This document shows, piece by piece, positions 1 through 64,000 of a stretch of 64,000 bases of DNA. Both the position numbers and the translations under genes were made by a program. The notes under the pieces were generated by a model. That model ran no database searches and was not told the origin of the DNA. It saw nothing but the letters and a program-made list of their open reading frames with translations. Positions within the stretch are counted from its first letter, which is position 1. Every line of letters starts with the position of its first letter. The stretch is from Zeus faber. Taxonomy: Eukaryota > Chordata > Actinopteri > Zeiformes > Zeidae. Location of the stretch: the NCBI GenBank assembly GCA_960531495.1, contig CAUIJY010000075.1:1364001-1428000 (forward strand), written 5' to 3'.

Positions 1-1785
1 TCTTTCAATCTTTCAATCTTTCTTTCATTCTTTCTTTCAATCTTTCTTACTTTCAATTTTTCTATCTTTCAAAATTTCTTCCAATCGTTCAATCTTTCTT
101 TCATTATTTCTTTCAATCTTTCTTTCTTTCAATCTTTCTTTCCATCTTTCTTTCAATCTTTCTTTCATTCTTTCTTTCAATCTTTCAATCTTTCTTTCAA
201 TAGTTCTTTCAATCTTTCTTTCTTTCCATCTTTCTTTCCATCTTTCTTTCATTCTTTACCTTCAGTCTTTCAATCTTTCTTTCAATCTTTCTTTCAATCT
301 TTCTTTCAATCGTTCTTTCTTTCTTTTAGTCTTTCTTTCAATCTTTCAATTTTTCAATCTTTCTTTCATTCTTTCTTTTAATCTTTCAATCTTTCTTTCA
401 TTGTTTCTTTCAATCTTTCTTTCATTCTTTCTTTCATTCTTTCTTTCAATCTTTCTTTCAATCGTTTTTCTTTCTTTTAGTCTTTCTTTCAATCTTTCAA
501 TTTTTCAATCTTTCTTTCATTCTTTCTTTTAATCTTTCAATCTTTCTTTCATTCTTTCCTTCAGTCTTTCATTCTTTCTTTCAATCTTTCTTTTTTCAAT
601 CTTTCTTGCAATCGTTCTTTCAATTGTTTAATCTTTCAATCTTTCTTTCATTCTTTCTTTCAGTCTTTCAATCTTTCTTTCAATCTGTCTTTCAATCTTT
701 CATTCATTCCTTCTTTCAATCTTTCAATCTTTCTTTCAATATTTCTTTCAATCTTTTTTACTTTCAATCTTTCTTTCTTAAAATCTTTCTTTCAATCTTT
801 CTTTCAAACTTTCATTCTTTATTTCAATATTTCAATATTTCAATCTTTCTTTCATTCTTTCTTTCAATCTTTCAATCTTTCTTTAATTCTTTCTTTCAAT
901 CTTTCTTACTTTCAATTTTTCTATCTTTCAATATTTCTTCCAATCTTTCAATATTTCTTTTGTTATTCTTTCAATCTTTCTTTCTTTCAATCTTTCTATC
1001 CATCTATCTTTCAATCTTTCTTTCATTCTTTCTTTCAATCTTTCTTTTTTCAAACTTTCTTGCAAACTTTCTTTCAATTGTTTAATCTTTCAATCTTTCT
1101 TTCATTCTTTCTTTCAGTCTTTCAATCTTTTTTCATTCTTTCTTTCAATATTTCAATCTTTCAATCTTTCTTTCATTCTTGCTTTCAATCTTTCAATCTT
1201 TCTTTCATTCTTTCTTTCAATCTTTCTTACTTTCAATTTTTCTATCTTTCAAAATTTCTTCCAATCGTTCAATCTTTCTTTCATTATTTCTTTCAATCTT
1301 TCTTTCTTTCAATCTTTCTTTCCATCTTTCTTTCAATCTTTCTTTCATTCTTTCTTTCAATCTTTCAATCTTTCTTTCAATAGTTCTTTCAATCTTTCTT
1401 TCTTTCCATCTTTCTTTCCATCTTTCTTTCATTCTTTACCTTCAGTCTTTCAATCTTTCTTTCAATCTTTCTTTCAATCTTTCTTTCAATCGTTCTTTCT
1501 TTCTTTTAGTCTTTCTTTCAATCTTTCAATTTTTCAATCTTTCTTTCATTCTTTCTTTTAATCTTTCAATCTTTCTTTCATTGTTTCTTTCAATCTTTCT
1601 TTCATTCTTTCTTTCATTCTTTCTTTCAATCTTTCTTTCAATCGTTTTTCTTTCTTTTAGTCTTTCTTTCAATCTTTCAATTTTTCAATCTTTCTTTCAT
1701 TCTTTCTTTTAATCTTTCAATCTTTCTTTCATTCTTTCCTTCAGTCTTTCATTCTTTCTTTCAATCTTTCTTTTTTCAATCTTTC
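1..1785. repeat. HOR block with 1180-bp-offset duplication
   Basis: Positions 2 to about 675 match 1182 to about 1855 with a constant offset of 1180 bp, including the AAAATTTCTTCC word (about 70 and 1250), the CTTTACCTTCAG variant (about 255 and 1435) and two TCTTTTAG clusters. The copies separate near 680. There the first copy jumps to a CAATCTGTC-CATTCATTCC segment that lies about 0.75 kb further on in complete type-A units, so the first copy has an internal deletion. The cassette CAATTGTTTAATC is at 621, 1075 and 1801. Confidence 0.75.
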
Positions 1786-3344
1786 TTGCAATCGTTCTTT
1801 CAATTGTTTAATCTTTCAATCTTTCTTTCATTCTTTCTTTCACTCTTTCAATCTTTTTTTCAATCTTTCTTTCATTCTTTCTTTCAATCTTTCTGTCCGT
1901 CATTCTTTCTTTCAGTATTTCTTTCATTCTTTATTTCAATCTTTGTTTCATTCTTTCTTTCAATCTTTCATTCAATCTTTCTTTCAGTCTTTCAATCTGT
2001 CTTTCAAACTTTCAATCTTTCTTTCAATCTTTCAATCTTTCAATCTTTCTTTCAATTTTTCTTTCAATCTTTCAGTCTTTCTTTCATTCTTTCTTTCAAT
2101 CTTTCAATCTTTCCATCTTTCAATCTTTCTTTCATTCTTTCTTTCAATCTTTCAATCTTTCTTTCAATATTTCTTTCAATCTTTCTTTCTGTCAATCTTT
2201 CTTTCCATCTTTCTTTCCATCTTTCTTTCATTCTTTCCTTCAGTCTTTCAATCTTTCTTTCAATCTTTCTTTCAATTTTTCTTTCAATCTTTCTTTCATT
2301 CTTTCCTTCAATCTTTCAATCTTTCTTTCAATCTGTCTTTCAATCTTTCATTCATTCCTTCTTTCAATCTTTCAATCTTTCTTCAATATTTCTTTCAATC
2401 TTTTTTACTTTCAATCTTTCTTTCTTTAAATCTTTCTTTCAATCTTTCTTTCAAACTTTCATTCTTTATTTCAATATTTCAATCGTTCAATCTTTCTTTC
2501 ATTCTTTCTTTCAATCTTTCTTTCAATCTTTCAATCTTTCTTTCAATGTTTCTTTCAATCTTTCATTCTTTAAATCTTTCTTTCAATCTTTCTTTCAAAC
2601 TTTCAATCTTTATTTCAATCGTTCAATCTTTCTTTCATTCTTTCTTTCAATATTTCAATCTTTCAATCTTTCTTTCATTCTTTCTTTCAATCTTTCAATC
2701 TTTCTTTAATTCTTTCTTTCAATCTTTCTTTCTTTCAATTTTTCTATCTTTCAATATTTCTTCCAATCTTTCAATCTTTCTTTTGTTATTCTTTCAATCT
2801 TTCTTTCTTTCAATCTTTCTTTCCATCTATCTTTAAATCTTTCTTTCATTCTTTCTTTCAATCTTTCTTTTTTCAATCTTTCTTGCAAACTTTCTTTCAA
2901 TTGTTTAATCTTTCAATCTTTCTTTCATTCTTTCTTTCAATTTTTCAATCTTTCTTTCTATCTTTCTTTCAATCTTTCTTTCATTCTTTATTTCAATCTT
3001 TGTTTCATTCTTTCTTTCAATCTTTCTTTCTTTCAATCTTTCTTTCAATCTTTCTTTCAATCTTTCTTTCAATCTTTCTTTCAATCTTTCTTTCATTCTT
3101 TCTTTTAATCTTTCAATCTTTCTTTCATTGTTTCTTTCAATCTTTCTGTCTTTCAATATTTCTTTCAATCTTTCAATCTTTCTTTCTTTTTTCAATCTTT
3201 CTTTCAATCTTTCTTTTATTCTATCTTTAAATCTTTCTTTTTTTCAATCTTTCTTGCAATCTTTCTTTCAGTCTTTCAATCTGTCTTTCAAACTTTCAAT
3301 CGTTCTTTCAATCTTTCAATCTTTCAATCTTTCTTTCAATTTTT
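1786..3344. repeat. Type-A-led HOR block (shortened)
   Basis: The block opens with TTGCAATCG and CAATTG at 1801 and carries the type-A hallmark CTGTCCGTCATT near 1893. It follows the same order of landmarks as 27934-29745 and 39733-41530 but is shortened by internal deletions in its first half. Cassettes are at 1801 and 2898, a spacing of 1097 bp against 1320 bp in the complete copies. Confidence 0.65.
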
Positions 3345-6300
3345 CAATCTTTCTTTTGTTATTCTTTAAATCTTTCTTTCTTTCAATCTTTCTATCCATC
3401 TATCTATCAATCTTTTTTTGATTCTTTCTTTCAATCTTTCTTTTTTCAATCTTTCTTGCAAACTTTCTTTCAATTGTTTAATCTTTCAATCTTTCTTTCA
3501 TTCTTTCTTTCAGTCTTTCAATCTTTTTTTCATTCTTTCTTTCAATATTTCAATCTTTCAATCTTTCTGTCATTCTTTCTTCCAATCGTTCAATCTTTCT
3601 TTTATTATTTCTTTCAATCTTTCTTTCTTTCAATCTTTCTTTCCATCTTTCTTTCAATCTTTCTTTCATTCTTTCTTTCAATCTTTCTTTTTTCAATATT
3701 TCTTTCAATCTGTCAATTTTTCTTTCATTCATTATTCTTTCTTTCAATTGTTCTTTCATTCTTTCTTTCAATCTTTCTTTAAATATTTCAATCTTTCAAT
3801 CTTTCTTTCAATCTTTCTTTCAATCTTTCAGTCTTTCTTTCATTCTTTCTTTCAATATTTCAATCTTTCAATCTTTCTTTCATTCTTTCTTTCAATCTTT
3901 CAATCTTTCTTTCATTCTTTCTTTCAATCTTTCAATCTTTCAATTTTTCTATCTTTCAATATTTCTTCCAATCGTTCAATCTTTCTTTCATTATTTCTTT
4001 CAATCTTTCTTTTGTTATATCTTTCAATCTTTCTTTCTTTCAATCTTTCTTTCCATCTTTCTTTCAATATTTCTTTCATTCTTTCTTTCAATCTTTCTTT
4101 CATTATTTCTTTCAGTCTTTCAATCTTTCTTTCAGTCGTTCAATCTTTCTTTCAATCTTTCAATCTTCAATCTTTCAATCTATCTTTCAGTCTTTCAATC
4201 TTTCTTTCAAACTTTCAATATTTCTTTCAATCTTTCAGTCGTTCAATCTTTCTTTCAATCTTTCTTTCAATCTTTCAATCATTCAATCTTTCAATCATTC
4301 AATCTTTCAATCTTTCTTTCTTTCAATCTTTCTTTCATTCTTTCCTTCAGTCTTACAATCTTTCTTTCAATCTTTCTTTCATTCTTTCTTTCAATCTTTC
4401 TTTCAATCTTTCAATCTTTATTTCAATCTTTCAATCTTTCAATCTTTCTTTCATTCTTAATTTCAATCTTTCAATCTTTCAATCTTTCTTTCATTCTTTC
4501 TTTCAATCTTTCTTTCAATCTTTCAATCTTTCTTTCAATATTTCTTTCAATCTTTCTTTCTTTAAATATTTCTTTAATCTTTCTTTCAAACTTTCAATCT
4601 TTATTTCAATCTTTCTTTCAATATTTCAATCTTTCTTTCATTCTTTCTTTCAATCTTTCAATCTTTCTTTAATTCTTTCTTTCAATCTTTCTTACTTTCA
4701 ATTTTTCTATCTTTCAATATTTCTTCCAATCTTTCAATCTTTCTTTTGTTATTCTTTCAATCTTTCTTTCTTTCAATCTTTCTATCCATATATCTTTCAA
4801 TCTTTCTTTCATTCTTTCTTTCAATCTTTCTTTTTTCAAACTTTCTTGCAAACTTTCTTTCAATTGTTTAATCTTTCAATCTTTCTTTCATTCTTTCTTT
4901 CAGTCTTTCAATCTTTTTTTCATTCTTTCTTTCAATATTTCAATCTTTCAATCTTTCACTCATTCTTTCTTTCAATCTTTTAATCTTTCTTTCATTCTTT
5001 CTTTCAATCTTTCTTACTTTCAATTTTTCTATCTTTCAAAATTTCTTCCAATCGTTCAATCTTTCTTTCATTATTTCTTTCAATCTTTCTTTCTTTCAAT
5101 CTTTCTTTCCATCTTTCTTTCAATCTTTCTTTCATTCTTTCTTTCAATCTTTCAATCTTTCTTTCAATAGTTCTTTCAGTCTTTCTTTCTTTCAATCTTT
5201 CTTTCCATCTTTCTTTCCATCTTTCTTTCATTCTTTCCTTCAGTCTTTCATTCTTTCCTTCAGTCTTTCAATCTTTCTTTCAATCTTTCTTTCAATCTTT
5301 CTTTTTTTCAATCTTTTTTTAAATCTTTCTTTCATTCTTTCTTTCAATCTTTCAATCTTTCTTTCAATCTATCTTTCTTTTTTCAATCTTTCTTTCATTC
5401 TTTCTATAGATCTTTCTTTCTTTCAATCTTTCTTTCAGTCTTTCAATCTTTCTTTAAATCTATCTTTCAATCTTTCTTTCAATCTTTCAATCTTTCAATT
5501 TTTCTTTCATTCTTTCTTTTAATCTTTCAATCTTTCAATCTTTCTGTCATTCTTTCTTCCAATCGTTCAATCTTTCTTTTACTATTTCTTTCAATCTTTC
5601 TTTCTTTCAATCTTTCTTTCCATCTTTCTTTCAATCTTTCTTTCCTTCTTTCTTTCAATCTTTCTTTTTTCAATATTTCTTTCAATCTGTCAATTTTTCT
5701 TTCATTCTTTCATTCTTTCTTTCAATTGTTATTTCATTCTTTCTTTCAATCTTTCTTTAAATATTTCAATCTTTCAATCTTTCTTTCAATCTTTCTTTCA
5801 ATCTTTCAGTCTTTCTTTCATTCTTTCTTTCAATATTTCAATCTTTCAATCTTTCTTTCATTCTTTCTTTCAATCTTTCAATCTTTCTTTCAATCTTTCA
5901 ATCTTTCAATTTTTCTATCTTTCAATATTTCTTCCAATCGTTCAATCTTTCTTTCATTATTTCTTTCAATCTTTCTTTTGTTATATCTTTCAATCTTTCT
6001 TTCTTTCAATCTTTCTTTCCATCTTTCTTTCAATATTTCTTTCATTCTTTCTTTCAATCTTTCTTTCATTATTTCTTTCAGTCTTTCAATCTTTCTTTCA
6101 GTCGTTCAATCTTTCTTTCAATCTTTCTTTCAATCTTTCAATCTTCAATCTTTCAATCTATCTTTCAGTCTTTCAATCTTTCTTTCAAACTTTCAATATT
6201 TCTTTCAATCTTTCAGTCGTTCAATCTTTCTTTCAATCTTTCTTTCAATCTTTCAATCATTCAATCTTTCAATCATTCAATCTTTCAATCTTTCTTTCTT

Positions 6301-6935: not shown

Positions 6936-9156
6936 CAATATTTCAATCTTTCTTTCATTCTTTCCTTCAGTCTTACAATCTTTCTTTCAATCTTTCTTTC
7001 ATTCTTTCTTTCAATCTTTCTTTCAATCTTTCAATCTTTCTTTCAATAAGTCTTTCAATCTTTCTTACTTTCAATCTTTCCTTTTTTAAATCTTTCTTTC
7101 AATCTTTCTTTCAAACTTTCATTCTTTATTTCAATCTTTCAATCTTTCAATCTTTCTTTCATTCTTTATTTCAATCTTTCAATCTTTCAATCTTTCTTTC
7201 AATCTTTCTTTCAATCTTTCATTCATTCCTTCTTTCAATCTTTCAATCTTTCTCTCAATATTTCTTTCAATCTTTTTTACTTTCAATCTTTCTTTCTTTA
7301 AATCTTTCTTTCAATCTTTCTTTCAAACTTTCATTCTTTATTTCAATATTTCAATCGTTCAATCTTTCTTTCATTCTTTCTTTCAATCTTTCTTTCAATC
7401 TTTCAATCTTTCTTTCAATCTTTCTTTCAATTTTTCTTTCTTTAAATCTTTCTTTCAATCTTTCTTTCAAACTTTCAATCTTTATTTCAATCTTTCAATC
7501 TTTCAATCTTTCTTTCATTCTTTCTTTCAATAATTCAATCTTTCAATCTTTCTTTCATTCTTTCTTTCAATCTTTCAATCTTTCTTTCATTCTTTCTTTC
7601 AATCTTTCTTTCTTTCAATTTTTCTATCTTTCAATATTTCTTCAAATCTTTCAATCTTTCTTTTGTTATTCTTTCAATCTTTCTTTCTTTCAATCTTTCT
7701 TTCCATCTATCTTTCAATCTTTCTTTCATTATTTCTTTCAATCTTTCGTACTTTCAATTTTTCTATCTTTCAATATTTCTTCCAATCGTTCAATCTTTCT
7801 TTCAATCTTTCTTTCAATCTTTCTTTCATTCTTTATTTTAATCTTTCAATCTTTCTTTCATTCTTTCTTTCAATCTTTCTGTCTTTCAATATTTCTTTCA
7901 ATCTTTCAATCTTTCTTTTTTTTTCAATCTTTCTTTCAATCTTTCTTTTATTCTATCTTTAAATCTTTGTTTTTTCAATCTTTCTTGCAATCTTTCTTTC
8001 AGTCTTTCAATCTGTCTTTCAAACTTTCAATCTTTCTTTCAATCTTTCAATCTTTCAATCTTTCTTTCAATTTTTCTTTCAATCTTTCAGTCTTTCTTTC
8101 ATTCTTTCTTTCAATCTTTCAATCTTTCAATCTTTCTTTCATTCTTTCTTTCAATCTTTCAATCTTTCTTTCAATATTTCTTTCAATCTTTCTTTCTGTC
8201 AATCTTCTTTCCATCTTTCTTTCCATCTTTCTTTCATTCTTTCGTTCAGTCTTTCAATCTTTCTTTCAATCTTTCTTTCATTTTTTCTTCCAATCTTTCA
8301 TTCATTCTTTCTTTCAATCTTTCAATCTTTCTTTCAATATTTCTTTCAATCTTTTTTACTTTCAATCTTTCTTTCTTTAAATCTTTCTCTCAATCTTTCT
8401 TTCAAACTTTCATTATTTATTTCAATATTTCAATCGTTCAATCTTTCTTTCATTCTTTCTTTCAATCTTTCTTTCAAACTTTCAATCTTTCTTTCAATAT
8501 TTCTTTCAATCTTTCTTTCTTTAAATCTTTCTTTCATTCTTTCTTTCAATATTTCAATTTTTCAATCTTTCTTTCATTCTTTCTTTTAATCTTTCAATCT
8601 TTCTTTCATTGTTTCTTTCAATCTTTCTGTCTTTCAATATTTCATTAAATCTTTCTTTCATTCCTTCTTTCAATCTTTCTTTCAAATTTTCTTTCAATCT
8701 TTCTTTTTTCAATATTTCTTTCAATCTTTCTTTCATTCTTTCTTTCAGTCTTTCAAAATTTGTTTCAAACTTTCAATCTTTCTTTCAATCTTTCAGTCGT
8801 TCAATCTTTCTTTCAATCTTTCTTTGAATCTTTCAATCTTCAATCTTTCAATCTATCTTTCAGTCTTTCTTTCAATCATTCAATCTTTCAATCTTTCTTT
8901 CAATCTTTCTTTCTTTCAATCTTTCTTTCAATCTTTCTTTCAAACTTTCAATCTTTATTTCGATCTTTCAATCTTTCAAACTTTCGTTCAATCTTTCTTT
9001 CAATCTTTCAATCTTTCTTTCATTCTTTCTTTCAATATTTCAATCTTTCAACCTTTCTTTCATTCTTTCTTTCAATCTTTGAATCTTTATTTAATTTTTT
9101 CTTTCAATCTTTCTTACTTTCAATTTTTCTATCTTTCAATATTTCTTCCAATCTTT
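6936..9156. repeat. HOR block paired with 43.7-45.5 kb
   Basis: The block shares private words with a segment about 36.4 kb away: CAATAATTC at 7528 and 43967, and TTTCGTAC near 7744 and 44183, both at the same 36439-bp offset. Further on, CAAAATTTG near 8756 recurs near 45292 and 47630. It contains partial type-A material but no CTGTCCGTCATT. No gene is visible. Confidence 0.65.
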
Positions 9157-12100
9157 CAATCTTTCTTTTGTTATTCTTTAAATCTTTCTTTCTTTCAATC
9201 TTTCTATCCATCTATCTATCAATCTTTTTTTGATTCTTTCTTTCAATCTTTCTTTTTTCAATCTTTCTTGCAAACTTTCTTTCAATTGTTTAATCTTTCA
9301 ATCTTTCTTTCATTCTTTCTTTCAGTCTTTCAATCTTTTTTTCATTCTTTCTTTCAATATTTCAATCTTTCAATCTTTCTGTCATTCTTTCTTCCAATCG
9401 TTCAATCTTTCTTTTATTATTTCTTTCAATCTTTCTTTCTTTCAATCTTTCTTTCCATCTTTCTTTCAATCTTTCTTTCATTCTTTCTTTCAATCTTTCT
9501 TTTTTCAATATTTCTTTCAATCTGTCAATTTTTCTTTCATTCTTTCATTCTTTCTTTCAATTGTTCTTTCATTCTTTCTTTCAATCTTTCTTTAAATATT
9601 TCAATCTTTCAATCTTTCTTTCAATCTTTCTTTCAATCTTTCAGTCTTTCTTTCATTCTTTCTTTCAATATTTCAATCTTTCAATCTTTCTTTCATTCAA
9701 TATTTCTTCCAATCGTTCAATCTTTCTTTCATTATTTCTTTCAATCTTTCTTTTGTTATATCTTTCAATCTTTCTTTCTTTCAATCTTTCTTTCCATCTT
9801 TCTTTCAATATTTCTTTCATTCTTTCTTTCAATCTTTCTTTCATTATTTCTTTCAGTCTTTCAATCTTTCTTTCAGTCGTTCAATCTTTCTTTCAAACTT
9901 TCAATCTTCAATCTTTCAATCTATCTTTCAGTCTTTCAATCTTTCTTTCAAACTTTCAATATTTCTTTCAATCTTTCAGTCGTTCAATCTTTCTTTCAAT
10001 CTTTCTTTCAATCTTTCAATCATTCGATCTTTCAATCATTCAATCTTTCAATCTTTCTTTCTTTCAATCTTTCTTTCATTCTTTCCTTCAGTCTTACAAT
10101 CTTTCTTTCAATCTTTCTATCTTTCTTTCAATATGTCTTTCAATCTTTCTTACTTTCAATCTTTCCTTTTTTAAATCTTTCTTTCAATCTTTCTTTCAAA
10201 CTTTCATTCGTTATTTCAATCTTTCAATCTTTCAATCTTTCTTTCATTCTTAATTTCAATCTTTCAATCTTTCAATCTTTCTTTCATTCTTTCTTTCAAT
10301 CTTTCAATCTTTCTTTCAATATTTCTTTCAATCTTTCTTTCTTTAAATATTTCTTTCAATCTTTCTTTCAAACTTTCAATCTTTATTTCAATCTTTCTTT
10401 CAATATTTCAATCTTTCTTTCATTCTTTCTTTCAATCTTTCAATCTTTCTTTAATTCTTTCTTTCAATCTTTCTTACTTTCAATTTTTCTATCTTTCAAT
10501 ATTTCTTCCAATCTTTCAATCTTTCTTTTGTTATTCTTTCAATCTTTCTTTCTTTCAATCTTTCTATCCATATATCTTTCAATCTTTCTTTCATTCTTTC
10601 TTTCAATCTTTCTTTTTTCAAACTTTCTTGCAAACTTTCTTTCAATTGTTTAATCTTTCAATCTTTCTTTCATTCTTTCTTTCAGTCTTTCAATCTTTTT
10701 TTCATTCTTTCTTTCAATATTTCAATCTTTCAATCTTTCTTTCATTCTTTCTTTCAATCTTTCTTACTTTCAATTTTTCTATCTTTCAAAATTTCTTCCA
10801 ATCGTTCAATCTTTCTTTCATTATTTCTTTCAATCTTTCTTTCTTTCAATCTTTCTTTCCATCTTTCTTTCAATCTTTCTTTCATTCTTTCTTTCAATCT
10901 TTCAATCTTTCTTTCAATAGTTCTTTCAATCTTTCTTTCTTTCAATCTTTCTTTCCATCTTTCTTTCCATCTTTCTTTCATTCTTTCCTTCAGTCTTTCA
11001 ATCTTTCTTTCAATCTTTCTTTCAATCTTTCTTTTTTTCAATCTTTTTTTAAATCTTTCTTTCATTCTTTCTTTCAATCTTTCAATCTTTCTTTCAATCT
11101 ATCTTTCTTTTTTCAATCTTTCTTTCATTCTTTCTATAGATCTTTCTTTCTTTCAATCTTTCTTTCAGTCTTTCAATCTTTCTTTAAATCTATCTTTCAA
11201 TCTTTCTTTCAATCTTTCAATCTTTCAATTTTTCTTTCATTCTTTCTTTCAATCTTTCAATCTTTCAATCTTTCTGTCATTCTTTCTTCCAATCGTTCAA
11301 TCTTTCTTTTATTATTTCTTTCAATCTTTCTTTCTTTCAATCTTTCTTTCCATCTTTCTTTCAATCTTTCTTTCATTCTTTCTTTCAATCTTTCTTTTTT
11401 CAATATTTCTTTCAATCTGTCAATTTTTCTTTCATTCTTTCATTCTTTCTTTCAATTGTTCTTTCATTCTTTCTTTCAATCTTTCTTTAAATATTTCAAT
11501 CTTTCAATCTTTCTTTCAATCTTTCTTTCAATCTTTCAGTCTTTCTTTCATTCTTTCTTTCAATATTTCAATCTTTCAATCTTTCTTTCATTCTTTCTTT
11601 CAATCTTTCAATCTTTCTTTCATTCTTTCTTTCAATCTTTATATCTTTCAATTTTTCTATCTTTCAATATTTCTTCCAATCGTTCAATCTTTCTTTCATT
11701 ATTTCTTTCAATCTTTCTTTTGTTATATCTTTCAATCTTTCTTTCTTTCAATCTTTCTTTCCATCTTTCTTTCAATATTTCTTTCATTCTTTCTTTCAAT
11801 CTTTCTTTCATTATTTCTTTCAGTCTTTCAATCTTTCTTTCAGTCGTTCAATCTTTCTTTCAATCTTTCTTTCAATCTTTCAATCATTCAATCTTTCAAT
11901 CATTCAATCTTTCAATCTTTCTTTCTTTCAATCTTTCTTTAATTCTTTCCTTCAGTCTTACAATCTTTCTCTCAATCTTTCTTTAATTCTTTCTTTCAAT
12001 CTTTCTTTCAATCTTTCAATCTTTCTTTCAATATGTCTTTCAATCTTTCTTACTTTCAATCTTTCCTTTTTTAAATCTTTCTTTCAATCTTTCTTTCAAA

Positions 12101-12667
12101 CTTTCATTCTTTATTTCAATCTTTCAATCCTTCAATCTTTCTTTCATTCTGTATTTCAATCTTTCAATCTTTCAATCTTTCTTTCATTCTTTCTTTCAAT
12201 CTTTCTTTCAATCTTTCAATCTTTCTTTCAATATTTCTTTCAATCTTTCTTTCTTTAAATATTTCTTTCAATCTTTCTTTCAAACTTTCAATCTTTATTT
12301 CAATCTTTCTTTCAATATTTCAATCTTTCTTTCATTCTTTCTTTCAATCTTTCAATCTTTCTTTAATTCTTTCTTTCAATCTTTCTTACTTTCAATTTTT
12401 CTATCTTTCAATATTTCTTCCAATCTTTCAATCTTTCTTTTGTTATTCTTTCAATCTTTCTTTCTTTCAATCTTTCTATCCATCTATCTTTCAATCTTTC
12501 TTTCATTCTTTCTTTCAATCTTTCTTTTTTCAAACTTTCTTGCAAACTTTCTTTCAATTGTTTAATCTTTCAATCTTTCTTTCATTCTTTCTTTCAGTCT
12601 TTCAATCTTTTTTTCATTCTTTCTTTCAATATTTCAATCTTTCAATCTTTCTTTCATTCTTTCTTTC
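9157..12667. repeat. Long type-B HOR block, copy 2
   Basis: This is the partner of 3345-6935. It is also close to 19560-22775: the cassettes at 10643 and 12555 correspond to 20773 and 22664 (offsets 10130 and 10109), and the stretch 10620-11990 looks almost identical to 20750-22120. Relative to copy 1 it lacks a short stretch near 9690, where TTCATTC runs directly into AATATTTCTTCC. The junction is shared with copy 3 near 19685, so copies 2 and 3 share a more recent ancestor. Confidence 0.7.
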
Positions 12668-14105
12668 AATCTTTCTTACTTTCAATTTTTCTATCTTTCA
12701 AAATTTCTTCCAATCGTTCAATCTTTCTTTCATTATTTCTTTCAATCTTTCTTTCTTTCATTCTTTCTTTCAATCTTTCAATCTTTCTTTCAATAGTTCT
12801 TTCAATCTTTCTTTCTTTCAATCTTTCTTTCCATCTTTCTATCCATCTTTCTTTCATTCTTTCCTTCAGTCTTTCAATCTTTCTTTCAATCTTTCTTTCA
12901 ATCTTTCTTTTTTTCAATCTTTTTTTAAATCTTTCTTTCATTCTTTCTTTCAATCTTTCAATCTTTCTTTCAATCTATCTTTCTTTTTTCAATCTTTCTT
13001 TCATTCTTTCTATAGATCTTTCTTTCTTTCAATCTTTCTTTCAGTCTTTCAATCTTTCTTTAAATCTATCTTTCAATCTTTCTTTCAATCTTTCAATCTT
13101 TCAATTTTTCTTTCATTCTTTCTTTCAATCTTTCAATCTTTCAATCTTTCTGTCATTCTTTCTTCCAATCGTTCAATCTTTCTTTTATTATTTCTTTCAA
13201 TCTTTCTTTCTTTCAATCTTTCTTTCCATCTTTCTTTCAATCTTTCTTTCATTCTTTCTTTCAATCTTTCTTTTTTCAATATTTCTTTCAATCTGTCAAT
13301 TTTTCTTTCATTCTTTCATTCTTTCTTTCAATTGTTCTTTCATTCTTTCTTTCAATCTTTCTTTAAATATTTCAATCTTTCAATCTTTCTTTCAATCTTT
13401 CTTTCAATCTTTCAGTCTTTCTTTCATTCTTTCTTTCAATATTTCAATCTTTCAATCTTTCTTTCATTCTTTCTTTCAATATTTCAATCTTTCTTTCATT
13501 CTTTCCTTCAGTCTTACAATCTTTCTTTCAATCTTTCTTTCATTCTTTCTTTCAATCTTTCTTTCAATCTTTCAATCTTTCTTTCAATATGTCTTTCAAT
13601 CTTTCTTACTTTCAATCTTTCCTTTTTTAAATCTTTCTTTCAATCTTTCTTTCAAACTTTCATTCTTTATTTCAATCTTTCAATCTTTCAATCTTTCTTT
13701 CATTCTTTATTTCAATCTTTCAATCTTTCAATCTTTCTTTCATTCTTTCTTTCAATCTTTCTTTCAATCTTTCAATCTTTCTTTCAATCTTTCTTTCAAT
13801 ATTTCTTTCAATCTTTCTTTCTTTAAATATTTCTTTCAATCTTTCTTTGCAACTTTCAATCTTTATTTCAATCTTTCTTTCAATATTTCAATCTTTCTTT
13901 CATTCTTTCTTTCAATCTTTCAATCTTTCTTTAATTCTTTCTTTCAATCTTTCTTACTTTCAATTTTTCTATCTTTCAATATTTCTTCCAATCTTTCAAT
14001 CTTTCTTTTGTTATTCTTTCAATCTTTCTTTATTTCAATCTTTCTATCCATCTATCTTTCAATCTTTCTTTCATTCTTTCTTTCAATCTTTCTTTTTTCA
14101 AACTT
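12668..14105. repeat. Short type-B HOR unit
   Basis: With its opening cassette at 12555 this is a unit of about 1568 bp. It matches the units starting at cassettes 15965, 17537 and 23290. It carries AAAATTTCTTCC near 12700, a TTTCATTC in place of the TTTCAATC..CCATC stretch seen in long type B, and CTATAGATC near 13010. TTTGCAACTTTC near 13846 is a variant shared with 18805, 24530, 25232 and 32918. Confidence 0.65.
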
Positions 14106-48000: not shown

Positions 48001-48745
48001 ATTTCAATCTTTCAACCTTTCTTTCATTCTTTCTTTTAATCTTTGAATCTTTCTTTAATTTTTTCTTTCAATCTTTCTTAGTTTCAATTTTTCTATCTTT
48101 CAATATTTCTTCCAATCTTTCAATCTTTCTTTTGTTATTCTTTCAATGTTTCTTTCTTTCAATCTTTCTATCCATCTATCTATCAATCTTTTTTTCATTC
48201 TTTCTTTCAATCTTTCTTTTTTCAATCTTTCTTGCAAACTTTCTTTCAATTATTTAATCTTTCAATCTTTCTTTCATTCTTTCTTTCAGTCTTTCAATCT
48301 TTTTTTCATTCTTTCTTTCAATATTTCAATCTTTCAATCTTTCTGTCATTCTTTCTGTCAATCTTTCAATCTTTCTTTCATTCTTTCTTTCAATCTTTCT
48401 TACTTTCAATTTTTCTATCTTTCAATATCTCTTCCAATCGTTCAATCTTTCTTTTATTATTTCTTTCAATCTTTCTTTCTTTCAATCTTTCTTTCCATCT
48501 TTCTTTCAATCTTTCTTTCATTCTTTCTTTCAATCTTTCTTTTTTCAATATTTCTTTCAATCTGTCAATTTTTCTTTCATTCTTTCATTCATTCTTTCAA
48601 TTGTTCTTTCATTCTTTCTTTCAATCTTTCTTTAAATATTTCAATCTTTCAATCTTTCTTTCAATCTTTCTTTCAATCTTTCAGTCTTTCTTTCATTCTT
48701 TCTTTCAATATTTCAATCTTTCAATCTTTCTTTCATTCTTTCTTT
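45080..48745. repeat. Near-tandem HOR pair, offset 2.06-2.34 kb
   Basis: About 45080-46690 corresponds to 47418-48745. CAAAATTTG is at about 45292 and 47630 (offset 2338), while the cassette mutated to CAATTATTTAATC is at 46189 and 48247 (offset 2058), so the second copy has lost about 280 bp. The shared CAATTA mutation, not seen elsewhere in the window, shows that the two copies have a recent common ancestor. TTTCTATCTTTCAATATCTC near 46355 and 48416 is a second shared private change. Confidence 0.7.
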
Positions 48746-54640: not shown

Positions 54641-57600
54641 TTCAATCTTTCAATCTTTCTTTAATTCTTTCTTTCAATCTTTCTTACTTTCAATTTTTCT
54701 ATCTTTCAATATTTCTTCCAATCTTTCAATCTTTCTTTTGTTATTCTTTCAATCTTTCTTTCTTTCAATCTTTCTATCCATCTATCTTTCAATCTTTCTT
54801 TCATTCTTTCTTTCAATCTTTCTTTTTTCAATCTTTCTTGCAAACTTTCTTTCAATTTTTAATGTTTCAATCTTTCTTTCATTCTTTCTTTTAATGTTTC
54901 TTACTTTCAATTTTTCTATCTTTCAAAATTTCTTCCAATCGTTCAATCTTTCTTTCATTATTTCTTTCAATCTTTCTTTCTTTCAATCTTTCTTTCCATC
55001 TTTCTTTCAATCTTTCTTTCATTCTTTCTTTCAATCTTTCAATCTTTCAATCTTTCAATCATTCTTTCATTCTTTTTTTCAATCTTTCAATCTTTCTTTC
55101 AATATTTCTTTCAATCTTTCCTTCTTTCAATCTTTCTTTCCATCTTTCTTTCCATCTTTCTTTCATTCTTTCCTTCAGTCTTTCAATCTTTCTTTCAATC
55201 TTTCTTTTTTTCAAACTTTTTTTAAATCTTTCTTTCATTCTTTCTTTCAATCTTTCAATCTTTCTTTCAATCTATCTTTCTTTTTTCAATCTTTCTTTCA
55301 TTCTTTCTATAAATCTTTCTTTCTTTCAATCTTTCTTTCAGTCTTTCAATCTTTCTTTAAATCAATCTTTCAATCTTTCTTTCAATCTTTCAATCTTTCA
55401 ATTTTTCTTTCATTCTTTCTTTCAATCTTTCAATCTTTCTTTCATTCTTTCTTTCAATCTTTCTTACCTTCAATTTTTCTATCTTTCAATATTTCTTCCA
55501 ATCGTTCAATCTTTCTTTCATTATTTCTTTCAATCTTTCTTTCCTTCAATCTTTCTTTCCATCTTTCTTTCAATCTTTCTTTCATTCTTTCTTTCAATGT
55601 TTCTTTTTTCAATATTTCTTTCAATCAGTCAATTTTTCTTTCATTCTTTCATTCTTTCTTTCAATCGTTCTTTCATTCTTTCTTTCAATCTTTCAATCTT
55701 TCTTTAAATATTTCAATCTTTCAGTCTTTCTTTCAATCTTTCTTTCAATCTTTCAATCTTTCTTTCATTCTTTCTTTAAATATTTCAATCTTTCAATCTT
55801 TCTTTAAATATTTCAATCTTTCAATCTTTCTTTCAATCTTTCTTTCAATCTTTCAATCTTTCTTTCATTCTTTCTTTAAATATTTCAATCTTTCAATCTT
55901 TCTTTCATTCTTTCTTTCAATCTTTCAATCTTTCTTTCATTCTTTCTTTCAATCTTTCTTACTTTCAATTTTTCTCTTTCAATATTTCTTCCAATCGTTC
56001 AATCTTTCTTTCATTATTTCTTTCAATCTTTCTTTTATTTCTTTCAATCTTTCTTCCTTTCAATCTTTCTTTCCATCTTTCTTGCAATCTTTCTTTCATT
56101 CTTTCTTTCAATCTTTCAATCTTTCTTTCATTCTTTCTTTAAATATTTCAATCTTTCAATCTTTCTTGCAATCTTTCTTTCATTCTTTCTTTCAATCTTT
56201 CAATCTTTCTTTCAATCTTTCTTTCAATCTTTCAATCTTTCTTTCATTCTTTCTTTAAATATTTCAATCTTTCAATCTTTCTTTCATTCTTTCTTTCAAT
56301 CTTTCAATCTTTCTTTCATTCTTTCTTTCAATCTTTCAATCTTTCTTTCATTCTTTCTTTCAATCTTTCTTACCTTCAATTTTTCTATCTTTCAATATTT
56401 CTTCCAATCGTTCAATCTTTCTTTCATTATTTCTTTCAATCTTTCTTTCTTTCAATCTTTCTTTCCATCTTTCTTTCAATCTTTCTTTCATTCTTTCTTT
56501 CAATGTTTCTTTTTTCAATATTTCTTTCAATCAGTCAATTTTTCTTTCATTCTTTCATTCTTTCTTTCAATCGTTCTTTCATTCTTTCTTTCAATCTTTC
56601 AATCTTTCTTTAAATATTTCAATCTTTCAATCTTTCTTTCAATCTTTCTTTCAATCTTTCAATCTTTCTTTCATTCTTTCTTTCAATATTTCAATCTTTC
56701 AATCTTTCTTTAAATATTTCAATCTTTCAATCTTTCTTTCAATCTTTCTTTCAATCTTTCAATCTTTCTTTCATTCTTTCTTTAAATATTTCAATCTTTC
56801 AATCTTTCTTTCATTCTTTCTTTCAATCTTTCAATCTTTCTTTCATTCTTTCTTTCAATCTTTCTTACTTTCAATTTTTCTCTTTCAATATTTCTTCCAA
56901 TCGTTCAATCTTTCTTTCATTATTTCTTTCAATCTTTCTTTTATTTCTTTCAATCTTTCTTCCTTTCAATCTTTCTTTCCATCTTTCTTTCAATCTTTCT
57001 TTCATTCTTTCTTTCAATCTTTCTTTTTTCAATCTTTCTTGCAATCTTTCTTTCAATTGTTTAATCTTTCAATCTTTCTTTCATTCTTTCCTTCAGTCTT
57101 TCAATCTTTTTTTCAATCTTTCTTTCATTCTTTCTTTCAATCGTTCTTTCTTTCTTTTAGTCTTTCTTTCAATCTTTCAATTTTTCAATCTTTCTTTCAT
57201 TCTCTCTTTTAATCTTTCAATCTTTCTTTCATTGTTTCTTTCAATCTTTCTTTCATTCTTTCTTTCATTCTTTCTTTCAATCTTTCTTTCAATCGTTCTT
57301 TCTTTCTTTTAGTCTTTCTTTCAATCTTTCAATTTTTCAATCTTTCTTTCATTCTTTCTTTTAATCTTTCAATCTTTCTTTCATTGTTTCTTTCAATCTT
57401 TCTTTCCATCTTTCTTTCATTCTTTCCTTCAGTCTTTCATTCTTTCTTTCAATCTTTCTTTTTTCAATATTTCTTGCAATCGTTCTTTCAATTGTTTAAT
57501 CTTTCAATCTTTCTTTCATTTTTTCTTTCAGTCTTTCAATCTTTGTTTCAATCTTTCTTTCATTCTTTCTTTCAATCTTTCTGTCCGTCATTCATTCTTT

Positions 57601-57834
57601 CAGTCTTTCTTTCAATCATTCAATCTTTCAATCTTTCCTTCTATCTTTCTTTCAATCTTTCTTTCATTCTTTATTTCAATCTTTCTTTCATTCTTTCTTT
57701 CAATCTTTCATTCAATCTTTCTTTCAATCTTTCTTTCAATCTTTCTTTCAATCTTTCTTTCAATCGTTCTTTCATTCTTTCTTTTAATCTTTCAATCTTT
57801 CTTACATTGTTTCTTTCAATCTTTCTGTCTTTCA
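54641..57834. repeat. 3.1-kb HOR duplication, first copy
   Basis: From about 54790 this matches 60888-64000 at an offset of 6098 bp, which rises to 6166 bp after a 68-bp difference near 56200-56300. Shared features are the deleted cassette CAATTTTTAATG (54853 and 60951), TTCTTTTAATGTTTC, CTATAAATC (about 55307 and 61405) and the cassettes at 57054 and 57489 against 63220 and 63655. The end at 57834 pairs with the window edge, so the true duplication may be longer. Confidence 0.8.
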
Positions 57835-58850
57835 ATATTTCTTTCAATCTTTCAATCTTTCTTTTTTTTTCAATCTTTCTTTCAATCTTTCTTTTATTCT
57901 ATCTTTAAATCTTTCTTTTTTTTCAATCTTTCTTGCAATCTTTCTTTCAGTCTTTCATCTGTCTTTCAAACTTTCAATCTTTCTTTCAATCTTTCAATCT
58001 TTCAATCTTTCTTTCAATTTTTCTTTCAATCTTTCAGTCTTTCTTTCATTCTTTCTTTCAATCTTTCAATCTTTCAATCTTTCAATCATTCTTACATTCT
58101 TTCTTCAATCTTTCAATCTTTCTTTTAATATTTCTTTCAATCTTTCTTTCTGTCAATCTTTCTTTCCATCTTTCTTTCCATCTTTCTTTCATTCTTTCCT
58201 TCAGTCTTTCAATCTTTCTTTCAATCTTTCTTTCAATTTTTCTTTCAATCTTTCTTTCATTCTTTCCTTCAATCTTTCAATCTTTCTTTCATTCTTTCTT
58301 TCAATCTTTCTTACTTTCAATTTTTCTCTTTCAATATTTCTTCCAATCGTTCAATCTTTCTTTCATTATTTCTTTCAATCTTTCTTTTATTTCTTTCAAT
58401 CTTTCTTTCTTTCAATCATTCTTTCCATCTTTCTTTCAATCTTTCTTTCATTCTTTCTTTCAATCTTTCTTTTTTCAATCTTTCTTGCAATCTTTCTTTC
58501 AATTGTTTAATCTTTCAATCTTTCTTTCATTCTTTCCTTCAGTCTTTCAATCTTTTTTTCAATCTTTCTTTCATTCTTTCTTTCAATCGTTCTTTCTTTC
58601 TTTTAGTCTTTCTTTCAATCTTTCAATTTTTCAATCTTTCTTTCATTCTCTCTTTTAATCTTTCAATCTTTCTTTCATTCTTTCTTTCAATCTTTCTTTC
58701 AATCGTTCTTTCTTTCTTTTAGTTTTTCTTTCAATCTTTCAATTTTTCAATCTTTCTTTCATTCTTTCTTTTAATCTTTCAATCTTTCTTTCATTGTTTC
58801 TTTCAATCTTTCTTTCCATCTTTCTTTCATTCTTTCCTTCAGTCTTTCAT
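57835..58850. repeat. Type-A-derived HOR segment
   Basis: This continues the unit opened at 57478. It has the CAATCTGTC stretch with a 1-bp loss (TTTCATCTGTC near 57954), then TTCATTCTTTCCTTCAATC near 58265, where it switches to a TTTTTCTCTTTCAATA segment and a cassette at 58500. Right-arm subfamily words are present. No gene is visible. Confidence 0.55.
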
Positions 58851-60887
58851 TCTTTATTTCAATCTTTCTTTCTTTCAATCTTTCTTTCAATCTTTATTTC
58901 ATTCTTTCTTTCAATCTTTCTTTTTTCAATCTATCTTGCAATCTTTCTTTCAATTGTTTAATCTTTCAATCTTTCTTTCATTCTTTCTTTCAATATTTCT
59001 TCAATCTTTCTTTAATAATTTCATTCTTTCTTTCAAACTTTCAATCTTTCTTTCAATCTTTCTTTAATAATTTCATTCTTTCTTTCAAACTTTCAATCTT
59101 TCTTTCATTCTTACTTTCAGTCTTTCAATTTTTTCTTTAAGTCTTTCTTTCAATCTTTCAATCTTTCAATCTTTCAATTTTTCTTTTATTCTTTCTTTCA
59201 ATCTTTATTACTTTCAATCTTTCTTTCAATCTTTCTTACTTTCAAATTATCTTTCTTTCAATATTTCTTTCAATCTTTCAATCTTTCTTTCAATCTTTCA
59301 ATCTTTCATTCTTTCTTTCAATCTTTCAATCTTTCAATCTTTCTTTCATTCTTTCTTTCATTCTTTCTTTCAGTCTTTCAACCTTTCCTAAAATCTTTCT
59401 TTCAATATTTAATTCTTACTTCAAATCTTTCTTTCTTTCTTTTTTCAATCTTTCTTTCATCCTTTCTATAAATCTTTCTTTCTTTCAATCTTTCTTTCAA
59501 TCTTTCAATCTATCAATCTTTCTTTAAATCTTTTATTCATTCTTTCTTTCAGTCTTTCAATCTTTCTATAAATCTTTCTTTCAATCTTTCTTTCAATCTT
59601 TCAATCTTTCAATTTTTCTATTTTTCAATCTTTCTTTCATTCTTTCTTTCAATCTTTCAATCTTTCTTTCAATCTTTCTTTCTTTTTTCAATCTTTCTTT
59701 CATTCTTTCTATAAATCTTTCTTTCTTTCAATCTTTCTTTCAATCTTTCAATCTTTCAATCTTTCTTTAATTATTTTATTCATTCTTTCTTTCAGTCTTT
59801 CAATCTTTCTTTAAATCTTTCTTTCAATCTTTCTTTCAATCTATCAATCTTTCAATTTTTCTTTCATTCTTTCTTTCAATCTTTATTACTTTCAATCTTT
59901 CTTTCAATCTTTCTTACTTTCATTCTCTCTTTCTTTCAATATTTCTTTCAATCTTTCAATCTTTCTTTCATTCTTTCATTCTTTCTTTCAATCGTTCTTT
60001 CATTCTTTCTTTCAATCTTTCATTCTTTCTTTCAGTCTTTCAACCTTTCTTAAAATCTTTCTTTCAATCTTTCTTTCAAGCTTTCAATATTTCTTTCAAT
60101 CTTTCTTTCAATCATTCAATCTTTCAATCTTTCTTTCTTTCAATCTTTCTTTCTATCTTTCTTTTAGTCTTTCTTTCAATCTTTCAATTTTTCAATCTAT
60201 CTTTCATTCTTTCTTTTTATCTTTCAATTTTTCTTTCATTGTTTCTTTCAATCTTTCTATCATTCTTTCATTCTTTCTTTCAATCGTTCTTTCATTCTTT
60301 CTTTCAATCTTTCAGTCTTTCTTTCAGTCTTTCAACCTTACTTAAAATCTTTCTTTCAATCTATCTTTCAAGCTTTCAATCTTTCTGTCAATCTTTCTTT
60401 CAATCATTCAAACTTTCAATCTTTCTTTCTTTCAATCTTTCTTTCTATCTTTCTTTCAATCTTTCTTTCCATCTTTCTTTCAATCTTTCTTTCAATCGTT
60501 CTTTCTTTCTTTTAGTCTTTCTTTCAATCTTTCAATTTTTCAATCTTTCTTTCATTCCTTCTTTTAATCTTTCAATCTTTCTTTCATTCTTTCTTTCAAT
60601 ATGTCAATCTTAAAATCTTTCTTTCAATCTTTCTTTCTTTCAATCTTTCTTTCAATCTTTTTTTCAATCTTTCTTTCAATCTTTCTTTCAATCTTTCAAT
60701 CTTTCTTTCAATATTTCTTTCAATCTTTCTTACTTTCATTCCTTCTTTCAATCTTTCTTTCAATTTTTCTTTCAATCTTTCTTTTTTCAATCTTTCGTTC
60801 GATCTTTCTTTCATTCTTTCTTTCAATCTTTCTTACTTTCAATCTTTCTTTCTTTCATTATTTCTTTCAATCTTTCAATCTTTCTTT
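58851..60887. repeat. Second decayed island of the array
   Basis: This stretch is diverged. It has one cassette (58951), then a local repeat around TTTAATAATTTCATTC (about 59010 and 59063), two CTATAAATC segments only about 242 bp apart (59466 and 59708), and irregular words such as CAACCTTTCCTAAAATC. HOR order cannot be followed. It resembles the island at 52.75-54.64 kb in texture. No gene is seen. Confidence 0.65.
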
Positions 60888-63800
60888 CAATCTTTCTTTC
60901 ATTCTTTCTTTCAATCTTTCTTTTTTCAATCTTTCTTGCAAACTTTCTTTCAATTTTTAATGTTTCAATCTTTCTTTCATTCTTTCTTTTAATGTTTCTT
61001 ACTTTCAATTTTTCTATCTTTCAAAATTTCTTCCAATCGTTCAATCTTTCTTTCATTATTTCTTTCAATCTTTCTTTCTTTCAATCTTTCTTTCCATCTT
61101 TCTTTCAATCTTTCTTTCATTCTTTCTTTCAATCTTTCAATCTTTCAATCTTTCAATCATTCTTTCATTCTTTTTTTCAATCTTTCAATCTTTCTTTCAA
61201 TATTTCTTTCAATCTTTCCTTCTTTCAATCTTTCTTTCCATCTTTCTTTCCATCTTTCTTTCATTCTTTCCTTCAGTCTTTCAATCTTTCTTTCAATCTT
61301 TCTTTTTTTCAAACTTTTTTTAAATCTTTCTTTCATTCTTTCTTTCAATCTTTCAATCTTTCTTTCAATCTATCTTTCTTTTTTCAATCTTTCTTTCATT
61401 CTTTCTATAAATCTTTCTTTCTTTCAATCTTTCTTTCAGTCTTTCAATCTTTCTTTAAATCAATCTTTCAATCTTTCTTTCAATCTTTCAATCTTTCAAT
61501 TTTTCTTTCATTCTTTCTTTCAATCTTTCAATCTTTCTTTCATTCTTTCTTTCAATCTTTCTTACCTTCAATTTTTCTATCTTTCAATATTTCTTCCAAT
61601 CGTTCAATCTTTCTTTCATTATTTCTTTCAATCTTTCTTTCCTTCAATCTTTCTTTCCATCTTTCTTTCAATCTTTCTTTCATTCTTTCTTTCAATGTTT
61701 CTTTTTTCAATATTTCTTTCAATCAGTCAATTTTTCTTTCATTCTTTCATTCTTTCTTTCAATCGTTCTTTCATTCTTTCTTTCAATCTTTCAATCTTTC
61801 TTTAAATATTTCAATCTTTCAGTCTTTCTTTCAATCTTTCTTTCAATCTTTCAATCTTTCTTTCATTCTTTCTTTAAATATTTCAATCTTTCAATCTTTC
61901 TTTAAATATTTCAATCTTTCAATCTTTCTTTCAATCTTTCTTTCAATCTTTCAATCTTTCTTTCATTCTTTCTTTAAATATTTCAATCTTTCAATCTTTC
62001 TTTCATTCTTTCTTTCAATCTTTCAATCTTTCTTTCATTCTTTCTTTCAATCTTTCTTACTTTCAATTTTTCTCTTTCAATATTTCTTCCAATCGTTCAA
62101 TCTTTCTTTCATTATTTCTTTCAATCTTTCTTTTATTTCTTTCAATCTTTCTTCCTTTCAATCTTTCTTTCCATCTTTCTTGCAATCTTTCTTTCATTCT
62201 TTCTTTCAATCTTTCAATCTTTCTTTCATTCTTTCTTTAAATATTTCAATCTTTCAATCTTTCTTGCAATCTTTCTTTCATTCTTTCTTTCAATCTTTCA
62301 ATCTTTCTTTCATTCTTTCTTTAAATATTTCAATCTTTCAATCTTTCTTTAAATATTTCAATCTTTCAATCTTTCTTTCAATCTTTCTTTCAATCTTTCA
62401 ATCTTTCTTTCATTCTTTCTTTAAATATTTCAATCTTTCAATCTTTCTTTCATTCTTTCTTTCAATCTTTCAATCTTTCTTTCATTCTTTCTTTCAATCT
62501 TTCAATCTTTCTTTCATTCTTTCTTTCAATCTTTCTTACCTTCAATTTTTCTATCTTTCAATATTTCTTCCAATCGTTCAATCTTTCTTTCATTATTTCT
62601 TTCAATCTTTCTTTCTTTCAATCTTTCTTTCCATCTTTCTTTCAATCTTTCTTTCATTCTTTCTTTCAATGTTTCTTTTTTCAATATTTCTTTCAATCAG
62701 TCAATTTTTCTTTCATTCTTTCATTCTTTCTTTCAATCGTTCTTTCATTCTTTCTTTCAATCTTTCAATCTTTCTTTAAATATTTCAATCTTTCAATCTT
62801 TCTTTCAATCTTTCTTTCAATCTTTCAATCTTTCTTTCATTCTTTCTTTCAATATTTCAATCTTTCAATCTTTCTTTAAATATTTCAATCTTTCAATCTT
62901 TCTTTCAATCTTTCTTTCAATCTTTCAATCTTTCTTTCATTCTTTCTTTAAATATTTCAATCTTTCAATCTTTCTTTCATTCTTTCTTTCAATCTTTCAA
63001 TCTTTCTTTCATTCTTTCTTTCAATCTTTCTTACTTTCAATTTTTCTCTTTCAATATTTCTTCCAATCGTTCAATCTTTCTTTCATTATTTCTTTCAATC
63101 TTTCTTTTATTTCTTTCAATCTTTCTTCCTTTCAATCTTTCTTTCCATCTTTCTTTCAATCTTTCTTTCATTCTTTCTTTCAATCTTTCTTTTTTCAATC
63201 TTTCTTGCAATCTTTCTTTCAATTGTTTAATCTTTCAATCTTTCTTTCATTCTTTCCTTCAGTCTTTCAATCTTTTTTTCAATCTTTCTTTCATTCTTTC
63301 TTTCAATCGTTCTTTCTTTCTTTTAGTCTTTCTTTCAATCTTTCAATTTTTCAATCTTTCTTTCATTCTCTCTTTTAATCTTTCAATCTTTCTTTCATTG
63401 TTTCTTTCAATCTTTCTTTCATTCTTTCTTTCATTCTTTCTTTCAATCTTTCTTTCAATCGTTCTTTCTTTCTTTTAGTCTTTCTTTCAATCTTTCAATT
63501 TTTCAATCTTTCTTTCATTCTTTCTTTTAATCTTTCAATCTTTCTTTCATTGTTTCTTTCAATCTTTCTTTCCATCTTTCTTTCATTCTTTCCTTCAGTC
63601 TTTCATTCTTCCTTTCAATCTTTCTTTTTTCAATATTTCTTGCAATCGTTCTTTCAATTGTTTAATCTTTCAATCTTTCTTTCATTCTTTCTTTCAGTCT
63701 TTCAATCTTTGTTTCAATCTTTCTTTCATTCTTTCTTTCAATCTTTCTGTCCGTCATTCATTCTTTCAGTCTTTCTTTCAATCATTCAATCTTTCAATCT

Positions 63801-64000
63801 TTCCTTCTATCTTTCTTTCAATCTTTCTTTCATTCTTTATTTCAATCTTTCTTTCATTCTTTCTTTCAATCTTTCATTCAATCTTTCTTTCAATCTTTCT
63901 TTCAATCTTTCTTTCAATCTTTCTTTCAATCGTTCTTTCATTCTTTCTTTTAATCTTTCAATCTTTCTTACATTGTTTCTTTCAATCTTTCTGTCTTTCA
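60888..64000. repeat. 3.1-kb HOR duplication, second copy (runs off the window)
   Basis: This is the partner of 54790-57834. The minus-strand frame at 55059-55250 is reproduced unchanged at 61157-61348, and that at 56871-57056 at 63037-63222. The two copies differ by one 68-bp change (17 four-base steps) and very few substitutions. The copy is still matching when the window ends. Confidence 0.8.

Follow-up and report, generated by a model that had tools for sequence, protein, structure and literature searches.

The stretch of the John Dory (Zeus faber) genome analysed here, which we call the window, comprises 64,000 nucleotides (positions 1,364,001-1,428,000) of C82, a scaffold of 2,378,538 bp that, judged by its size, lies outside the 22 chromosomes. 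Except for one long interspersed nuclear element (LINE) of 4,136 bp (34,478-38,613), a tandem array in head-to-tail order, built on a 4-bp step and referred to below as the TTTC array, fills the window. Tandem Repeats Finder calls a 12-, 8- or 32-bp repeat over practically the whole window. Of the 7,879 distances from one TTTC to the next in the array, 97.5% are divisible by 4. The self-match within bases 1-34,000 is 0.61-0.73 at lags of 4, 8, 12, 24 and 32, compared with 0.28-0.41 at those lags up to 40 that 4 does not divide. The commonest 8-mers are composed of TTTC and CAAT; to judge from its sequence, the seed of the satellite is (TTTC)n with TTTCAATC and TTTCATTC variants. The plus strand of the array is pyrimidine-rich and contains very little G (828 of 59,862 bases, 1.4%). 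GC content is about 24.5% and GC skew near -0.9 in bins outside 34-40 kb; the skew lies between -0.84 and -0.92 in 29 of the 32 2-kb bins, the other three containing the LINE.

The array carries higher-order repeats (HORs) of kilobase size. An exact 100-mer that recurs elsewhere in the array begins at 65% of array positions, compared with no more than 0.8% when the sequence was resampled with Markov models of orders 8, 12, 16 and 20 (a single resample per order). The longest exact repeats within the window measure 1,430, 1,255 and 1,136 bp, and blocks of at least 400 bp that are 95% identical without gaps (lags 300-40,000) span 84% of the window, a figure that counts the LINE in its denominator and receives a slight contribution from the 5' monomers of the LINE. 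A BLAST self-comparison (E up to 1e-50, identity 90% or more) returned 185 direct and no inverted off-diagonal pieces. Cutting the array, with the LINE excluded, at the 12-bp marker CTTTTGTTATTC (up to one mismatch) gave 29 intervals, of which 19 measure 1.5-2.06 kb, nine 0.57-1.39 kb and one 6.6 kb. A single HOR period is ruled out by the scattered lags, the absence of a dominant long lag and the uneven marker intervals. When 28 of the intervals (the 6.6-kb interval being excluded) were clustered by shared 32-mers, the number of families varied with the cut, from three at 0.6 through five at 0.5 and seven at 0.4 to ten at 0.3. Close units align at 99.4-99.8% identity with few gaps; for example, the units starting at 10,525 and 20,655 are 99.8% identical over 1,776 bp with two gaps (115 and 136 bp), and those at 12,437 and 23,172 are 99.8% identical over 1,516 bp, also with two gaps (40 and 12 bp). 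Null alignments from an order-12 Markov model average 90.3% (maximum 92.0%, about 47 gaps, 30 pairs), and real but unphased windows of the array align at 90.8% on average and 94.0% at most. The between-family pair 10,525 and 14,005, at 93.7% with 36 gaps, barely exceeds the unphased windows. Because alignment between families is near background, descent of the families from one whole ancestral unit is unsupported. Measured against what is usually expected of a satellite with HORs, the array is long and head-to-tail, its units are more alike than chance allows, and it lacks one regular period.

Copying is also evident on a larger scale (Table 1). The copies of the super-repeat of about 10 kb are 97.5-97.6% identical without gaps over 1.7-1.8 kb, and the 6.1-kb tandem unit near the right edge is marked by exact matches of 54,785 to 60,883 (1,430 bp) and of 56,190 to 62,356 (1,255 bp). 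In 33 unit pairs with at least 99% identity, 105 of the 133 net length differences amount to whole 4-bp steps, where 25% would be expected by chance, and 12 bp is the most frequent difference (39 of 133); these pairs have a shared history, and the 133 differences do not represent as many independent events. The length differences fit exchange or slippage that would have taken place in register with the 4-bp step.

Table 1. Repeats and LINE features in the window (window coordinates), with the sampled C82 loci that carry the second satellite.
Feature	Position	Strand	Remarks
TTTC-derived HOR satellite, left part	1-34,477	+	pyrimidine-rich strand is the plus strand
TTTC-derived HOR satellite, right part	38,614-64,000	+	orientation as in left part
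Core with most alpha-family units plus some beta units	10,525-32,342	+	marker decomposition, 32-mer clustering
Alpha-family unit starts in core	10,525; 12,437; 15,847; 17,419; 18,963; 20,655; 23,172; 30,324	+	
Beta units in core	14,005; 25,390; 27,256	+	
Beta-family units	33,076-44,099	+	33,076 (LINE-interrupted), 39,044, 40,950, 42,111
Gamma-family units	44,099-48,129	+	44,099, 46,071; third gamma unit at 7,660-9,165
Super-repeat of about 10 kb	10,218-31,812	+	10,218 to 20,348 (lag 10,130) to 30,017 (lag 9,669)
Segmental duplication, lag about 7.65 kb	24,050-42,400	+	about 24.05-30.6 kb copied to 31.7-42.4 kb, LINE uncounted
6.1-kb tandem unit, at least 1.5 copies	54,730-64,000	+	internal 0.9-kb duplication
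L2-like LINE (by sequence), uninterrupted open reading frame	34,478-38,613	+	within a beta-family unit
Target-site duplication, left copy	34,468-34,477	+	TTCTTTCAAT, 10 bp
Target-site duplication, right copy	38,614-38,623	+	
First 5' monomer of LINE	34,478-35,093	+	616-bp step to next; first 380 bp identical
Second 5' monomer of LINE	35,094-35,493	+	about 400 bp alike, then enters open reading frame region
LINE open reading frame, 993 aa stop to stop	35,468-38,449	+	first ATG of frame 35,552; Exo_endo_phos and RVT_1 domains
UnaL2 LINE 3' stem-loop	38,536-38,589	+	RF00436, 61.7 bits
Second satellite	L013 1-10,000		C82:800k
Second satellite	L017 1-6,937		C82:1300k
Second satellite	L023 1-10,000		C82:1800k

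The insert in the array can be classed from its predicted protein and RNA features as an L2-like LINE. The protein matches an AP-like endonuclease (PF03372, E 3.5e-13) and a reverse transcriptase (PF00078, E 2.4e-36), the solved structures closest to it in sequence are those of LINE-1 ORF2 proteins and R2 proteins, and the 3' stem-loop scores above the gathering score of 55 for RF00436. In stem-loop, endonuclease and reverse transcriptase it resembles the L2-clade LINEs with a UnaL2-type stem-loop, among which its two tandem 5' monomers may be distinctive; such monomers are known from mouse L1. When the flanks are rejoined without the LINE, they match intact sites near 15.3, 26.8, 28.5 and 40.3 kb, barring 4- and 12-bp steps. 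In the duplication with a lag of about 7.65 kb the LINE sits in the right copy and the left copy retains an empty site, that near 26.8 kb. Immediately to the left of the LINE the lag amounts to 7,662, and immediately to its right to 11,788; subtracting the LINE (4,136) and one copy of the target site (10) from the latter leaves 7,642; the difference of 20 bp is the net of alignment steps of 12, 12 and 4 bp. Since the left copy is without the LINE and the lags agree once it is removed, the insertion postdates the duplication, and the element would be a young passenger in the array. No relative of the LINE, and no match to its 3' end, was found in viral_contigs, a collection that is uninformative on fish. 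The TTTC block to which the window belongs contains a second UnaL2-type LINE 3' end, at about C82:1,506.7 kb (locus L021, 6685-6738).

Some further properties of the composition concern what the array might do, although we attribute no sequence-encoded function to it. The longest pyrimidine run is 22 nt, the pyrimidine-rich, G-poor sequence being regularly broken by A or AA, which rules out a long polypyrimidine or H-DNA tract as a main feature; GAA occurs only eight times on the plus strand of the array, in line with its head-to-tail order. The density of TCTTTC (112 per kb) raised the idea of an RNA that acts as a sponge for PTB, which we set aside. Coding potential was likewise set aside: the stop-free frames are a consequence of composition, and the array frames listed over 34-40 kb repeat one peptide pattern.

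The array continues beyond both edges of the window. Probes place the left edge of the TTTC block between C82:1,330,301 and 1,333,001 and the right edge between 1,540,150 and 1,545,001, so that the block would measure 207-215 kb, taking it as continuous between probes. Elsewhere on the scaffold, TTTC blocks alternate with a second satellite of 196-208 bp monomers organised in HORs of 460 bp and 3.73 kb (C82:800k, 1300k and 1800k). Among 16 sampled 10-kb loci of C82, ten are TTTC array, four contain the second satellite (two of them partially), one is part TTTC and one is neither; the 20 probes of 300 bp comprise 11 TTTC, five of the other satellite and four of neither. Every TTTC locus and probe sampled on C82 reads on the plus strand. 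The BLAST comparison of these loci gave no inverted rows, but it missed TTTC pairs that are visible by shared 80-mers and says little about orientation, for which the strand counts of TTTCAATC are the better guide. One TTTC block edge (L022, 6770-6960) consists of a short degenerate TTTC stretch, other interrupting sequence and then the main array. Unlike the TTTC blocks, the 200-bp satellite occurs in both orientations within about 4 kb (L016, 165-2006 versus 2318-4255, called by consensus units of this satellite).

From its form, the 196-208 bp satellite is a candidate for the John Dory centromere repeat. A search of this satellite in four 10-kb loci, on both strands, gave no exact CENP-B box and one site with one mismatch; the box is not required for centromeres. 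A segment of the second satellite recurs about 1 Mb apart with 99.66% identity over 6.2 kb, and a satellite edge together with the adjoining complex sequence is duplicated 102 kb apart (99.2% over 3.9 kb; L016 3952-7857 and L017 6095-10000), which is consistent with composite segmental copying. Further, the 1,330-kb probe (spacer) and the 850-kb probe (TTTC) are each contained in the 1,600-1,610 kb locus, and window positions 7.6-11.9 and 17.0-20.9 kb reappear in the same order at C82:400-410 kb. These recurring segments may be composite segments copied whole, or haplotypes that were partly unpurged.

The repeat class is abundant outside C82 as well. The John Dory assembly fZeuFab8.1 comprises 804.7 Mb in 190 scaffolds (PMC11179049), and our counts cover 803.5 Mb in 153 contigs. 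In these, a 32-mer from the array has 38,048 exact copies, of which 17,365 are forward and 20,683 reverse; not one copy of the reversed control occurs genome-wide. From the densities in the window and the ten C82 loci we arrive at a rough estimate of 11-15 Mb of TTTC array. Because copies lie on both strands, the single orientation is a regional and not a genome-wide property. On chromosome 1 the blocks switch orientation, reading plus at 64.65 Mb, minus at 64.70 Mb and plus at 64.75 Mb (loci L001-L008 and L046), which reveals that the single orientation is not chromosomal either. The sequence-only reading had described about 60 kb of strand-asymmetric array, nearly G-free on the plus strand, built on a 4-bp step, with kilobase-scale HOR units in head-to-tail order and continuing past both window edges, and the measurements above bear out each of these properties. 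Its description of the array as one-orientation holds for the window and the sampled C82 array loci; genome-wide it fails, and within the window the LINE interrupts the array.

To ask where on chromosomes the satellites lie, we looked at 44 probes of chromosome ends, each of 300 or 500 bp, of which two (C1 start and C21 start) read N. The TTTC array is present in five (C1 end, C2 start, C3 end, C4 start and C11 start), and the 200-bp satellite in two (C12 start and C22 start). Ten or more telomere repeats are carried by 12 of the 44, and none combines satellite and telomere repeats. For three of the seven satellite ends (C3, C4 and C22) the opposite end bears telomere repeats. A probe full of telomere repeats cannot reveal an array just inside, and the absence of TTTC from such probes says little. 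The C2-start probe consists to 50%, and the C1-end probe to 54%, of 100-mers of the window type, but these account for less than 2% of the eight loci at C1:64.65-64.75 Mb, and none occur in the C3-end, C4-start, C11-start and C82-end probes. From this uneven sharing it follows that homogenisation is regional, with some unit types common to different chromosomes.

Among described satellites, the array is best compared with the human HSat2,3 family, which is derived from (CATTC)n and includes the 3.6-kb DYZ1 unit and the 1.77-kb HSat2 unit of chromosome 1 (PMC4022460). In both cases a short simple seed has diverged to kilobase units with subfamilies in large arrays, which are heterochromatic in human and presumably so in the John Dory. 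However, the John Dory seed is the tetranucleotide TTTC and not a pentanucleotide, the host is a fish, the plus strand is G-poor, and unit length varies irregularly (0.57-2.06 kb and 6.1 kb) without a dominant period. The 4-bp step and the 8-mers of TTTC and CAAT do not agree with descent from the CATTC pentamer by which HSat2 and HSat3 are defined. The different seed and the irregular units place the TTTC array outside HSat2/3, and its origin was probably independent. Other human simple-sequence arrays longer than 10 kb also have HORs, among them HSATII (HOR of 5.8 kb), GAATG (HORs of 3.36 and 3.6 kb) and a 61-bp variable number tandem repeat whose HORs of 1.6 and 2.5 kb are irregular (PMC2588610). 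These arrays resemble the John Dory array in having HORs hidden in seemingly simple sequence and domains of differing similarity; some of them contain inversions, whereas none were found in the John Dory window. The unusual nature ascribed to such an array by the sequence-only reading is thus only partly right, as HORs in human simple-sequence satellites are documented (PMC2588610, PMC4022460). The literature retrieved with TTTCAATC and Zeus faber satellite DNA, to judge from the titles listed and the text available, contained no description of a TTTC satellite in the John Dory. A 37-bp array pattern had no exact match in viral_contigs or genome_contigs, viral and prokaryotic collections that are uninformative on other fish.

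We favour the interpretation, with a probability of about two in three, that the array is a pericentromeric (or acrocentric short-arm) simple-sequence satellite with an organisation like that of HSat2/3, whose growth took place through unequal exchange in register and through amplification of segments. Centromere adjacency and heterochromatin are suggested by the neighbouring satellite and by the positions at scaffold ends. Of the locations proposed in the sequence-only reading, a heterochromatic, centromere-adjacent block is the best supported: the alternation with the 196-208 bp satellite and the chromosome-end probes without telomere repeats speak for it, with the placement itself being deduced from them. 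Several observations weigh against this interpretation. C82 is not placed on a chromosome, in 15 of the 22 chromosomes neither end probe matched either satellite, and the likeness of the C3-end, C4-start and C11-start probes to the window is confined to short words. Moreover, unpurged haplotypes could account in part for the near-identical 6.2-kb segments at a distance of about 1 Mb, and 28 of the 133 length differences between close units depart from the 4-bp step. The position at chromosome ends would fit subtelomeric heterochromatin too, and the main rival is that the array caps chromosome ends just inside unassembled telomeres. The array does lie at the outer end of five chromosomes, and telomere-filled probes would miss it just inside. 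However, no chromosome has satellite at both ends as far as the 300-500 bp probes reveal (with C1 start and C21 start reading N), the satellite ends of C3, C4 and C22 lie opposite telomere-bearing ends, and alternation with an HOR satellite is more typical of centromere regions. Subtelomeric heterochromatin is a serious but unlikely explanation.

The remaining alternatives are less probable still. The TTTC HOR blocks could themselves carry CENP-A as the functional centromere repeat, with the 200-bp satellite as their flank; the homogenised HOR core, the wide extent on C82 and the position at unassembled chromosome ends agree with this. However, centromere repeats more usually take the form of a satellite of about 200 bp with HORs, and it is the 196-208 bp satellite with its 3.73-kb HOR that has this form, which makes a centromeric role of the TTTC blocks doubtful. 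Were it true, John Dory centromeres would lie on a tetranucleotide satellite that is poor in G, keeps to one orientation within a region and is being re-amplified in composite mega-units with its neighbour satellite. Near-identical copies at a lag of about 0.97-1.0 Mb on C82 might instead betray a simple array that is in truth shorter and was enlarged in assembly by haplotype copies that were mis-joined or left unpurged. The copies within the window, however, are set apart by substitutions, by steps of 12 bp and by one LINE; the TTTC array is also found on several chromosome scaffolds (among the 32-mer matches listed and in the end probes); and the longest exact repeat in the window, at 1,430 bp, is shorter than typical HiFi reads. 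We regard an assembly artefact as quite improbable. Misassembly is less likely also because the genome was assembled with hifiasm from 43x HiFi coverage, with a consensus quality of 52.6 (PMC11179049). The least probable explanation, which we consider very improbable, is a block specific to one locus or, as the sequence-only reading had also proposed, to a sex chromosome. The regional fingerprints, with window-type 100-mers scarce in the eight C1 loci and lacking at C3 end, C4 start and C11 start, would be compatible with a locus-specific block, but the repeat class ends chromosomes 1, 2, 3, 4 and 11, and half or more of the C2-start and C1-end probes is made up of window-type 100-mers. A block confined to a single chromosome is contradicted already. 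As for a sex chromosome, the available part of the assembly paper lists none (PMC11179049).

The growth of the array may be pictured as a hierarchy of exchanges, a mechanism that we infer from the repeat pattern. Slippage and unequal exchange would preserve the 4-bp register and generate the sub-steps of 8, 12 and 32 bp; larger unequal exchanges or amplifications would fix units of 1.5-2 kb that bear private fingerprints; groups of these fixed units would then be copied at lags of 6-10 kb; and composite segments consisting of the other satellite, spacer and TTTC block would be copied over 0.1-1 Mb. As long as amplification proceeds without inversion, the copies in a region would all keep the same orientation, and no further cause would be needed for a strand asymmetry that extends over hundreds of kb. 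The satellite would behave as a self-amplifying, passively homogenised tandem array.

The John Dory array appears to represent another, independent vertebrate case in which a seed of microsatellite length gave rise to large satellite blocks with kilobase units, here in a fish and with a step of 4 bp. Since its hierarchy, register and orientation can be read from a HiFi assembly, the array can serve as a test case for the birth of HORs by in-register unequal exchange. The TTTC array may also explain where some of the John Dory chromosome scaffolds stop.

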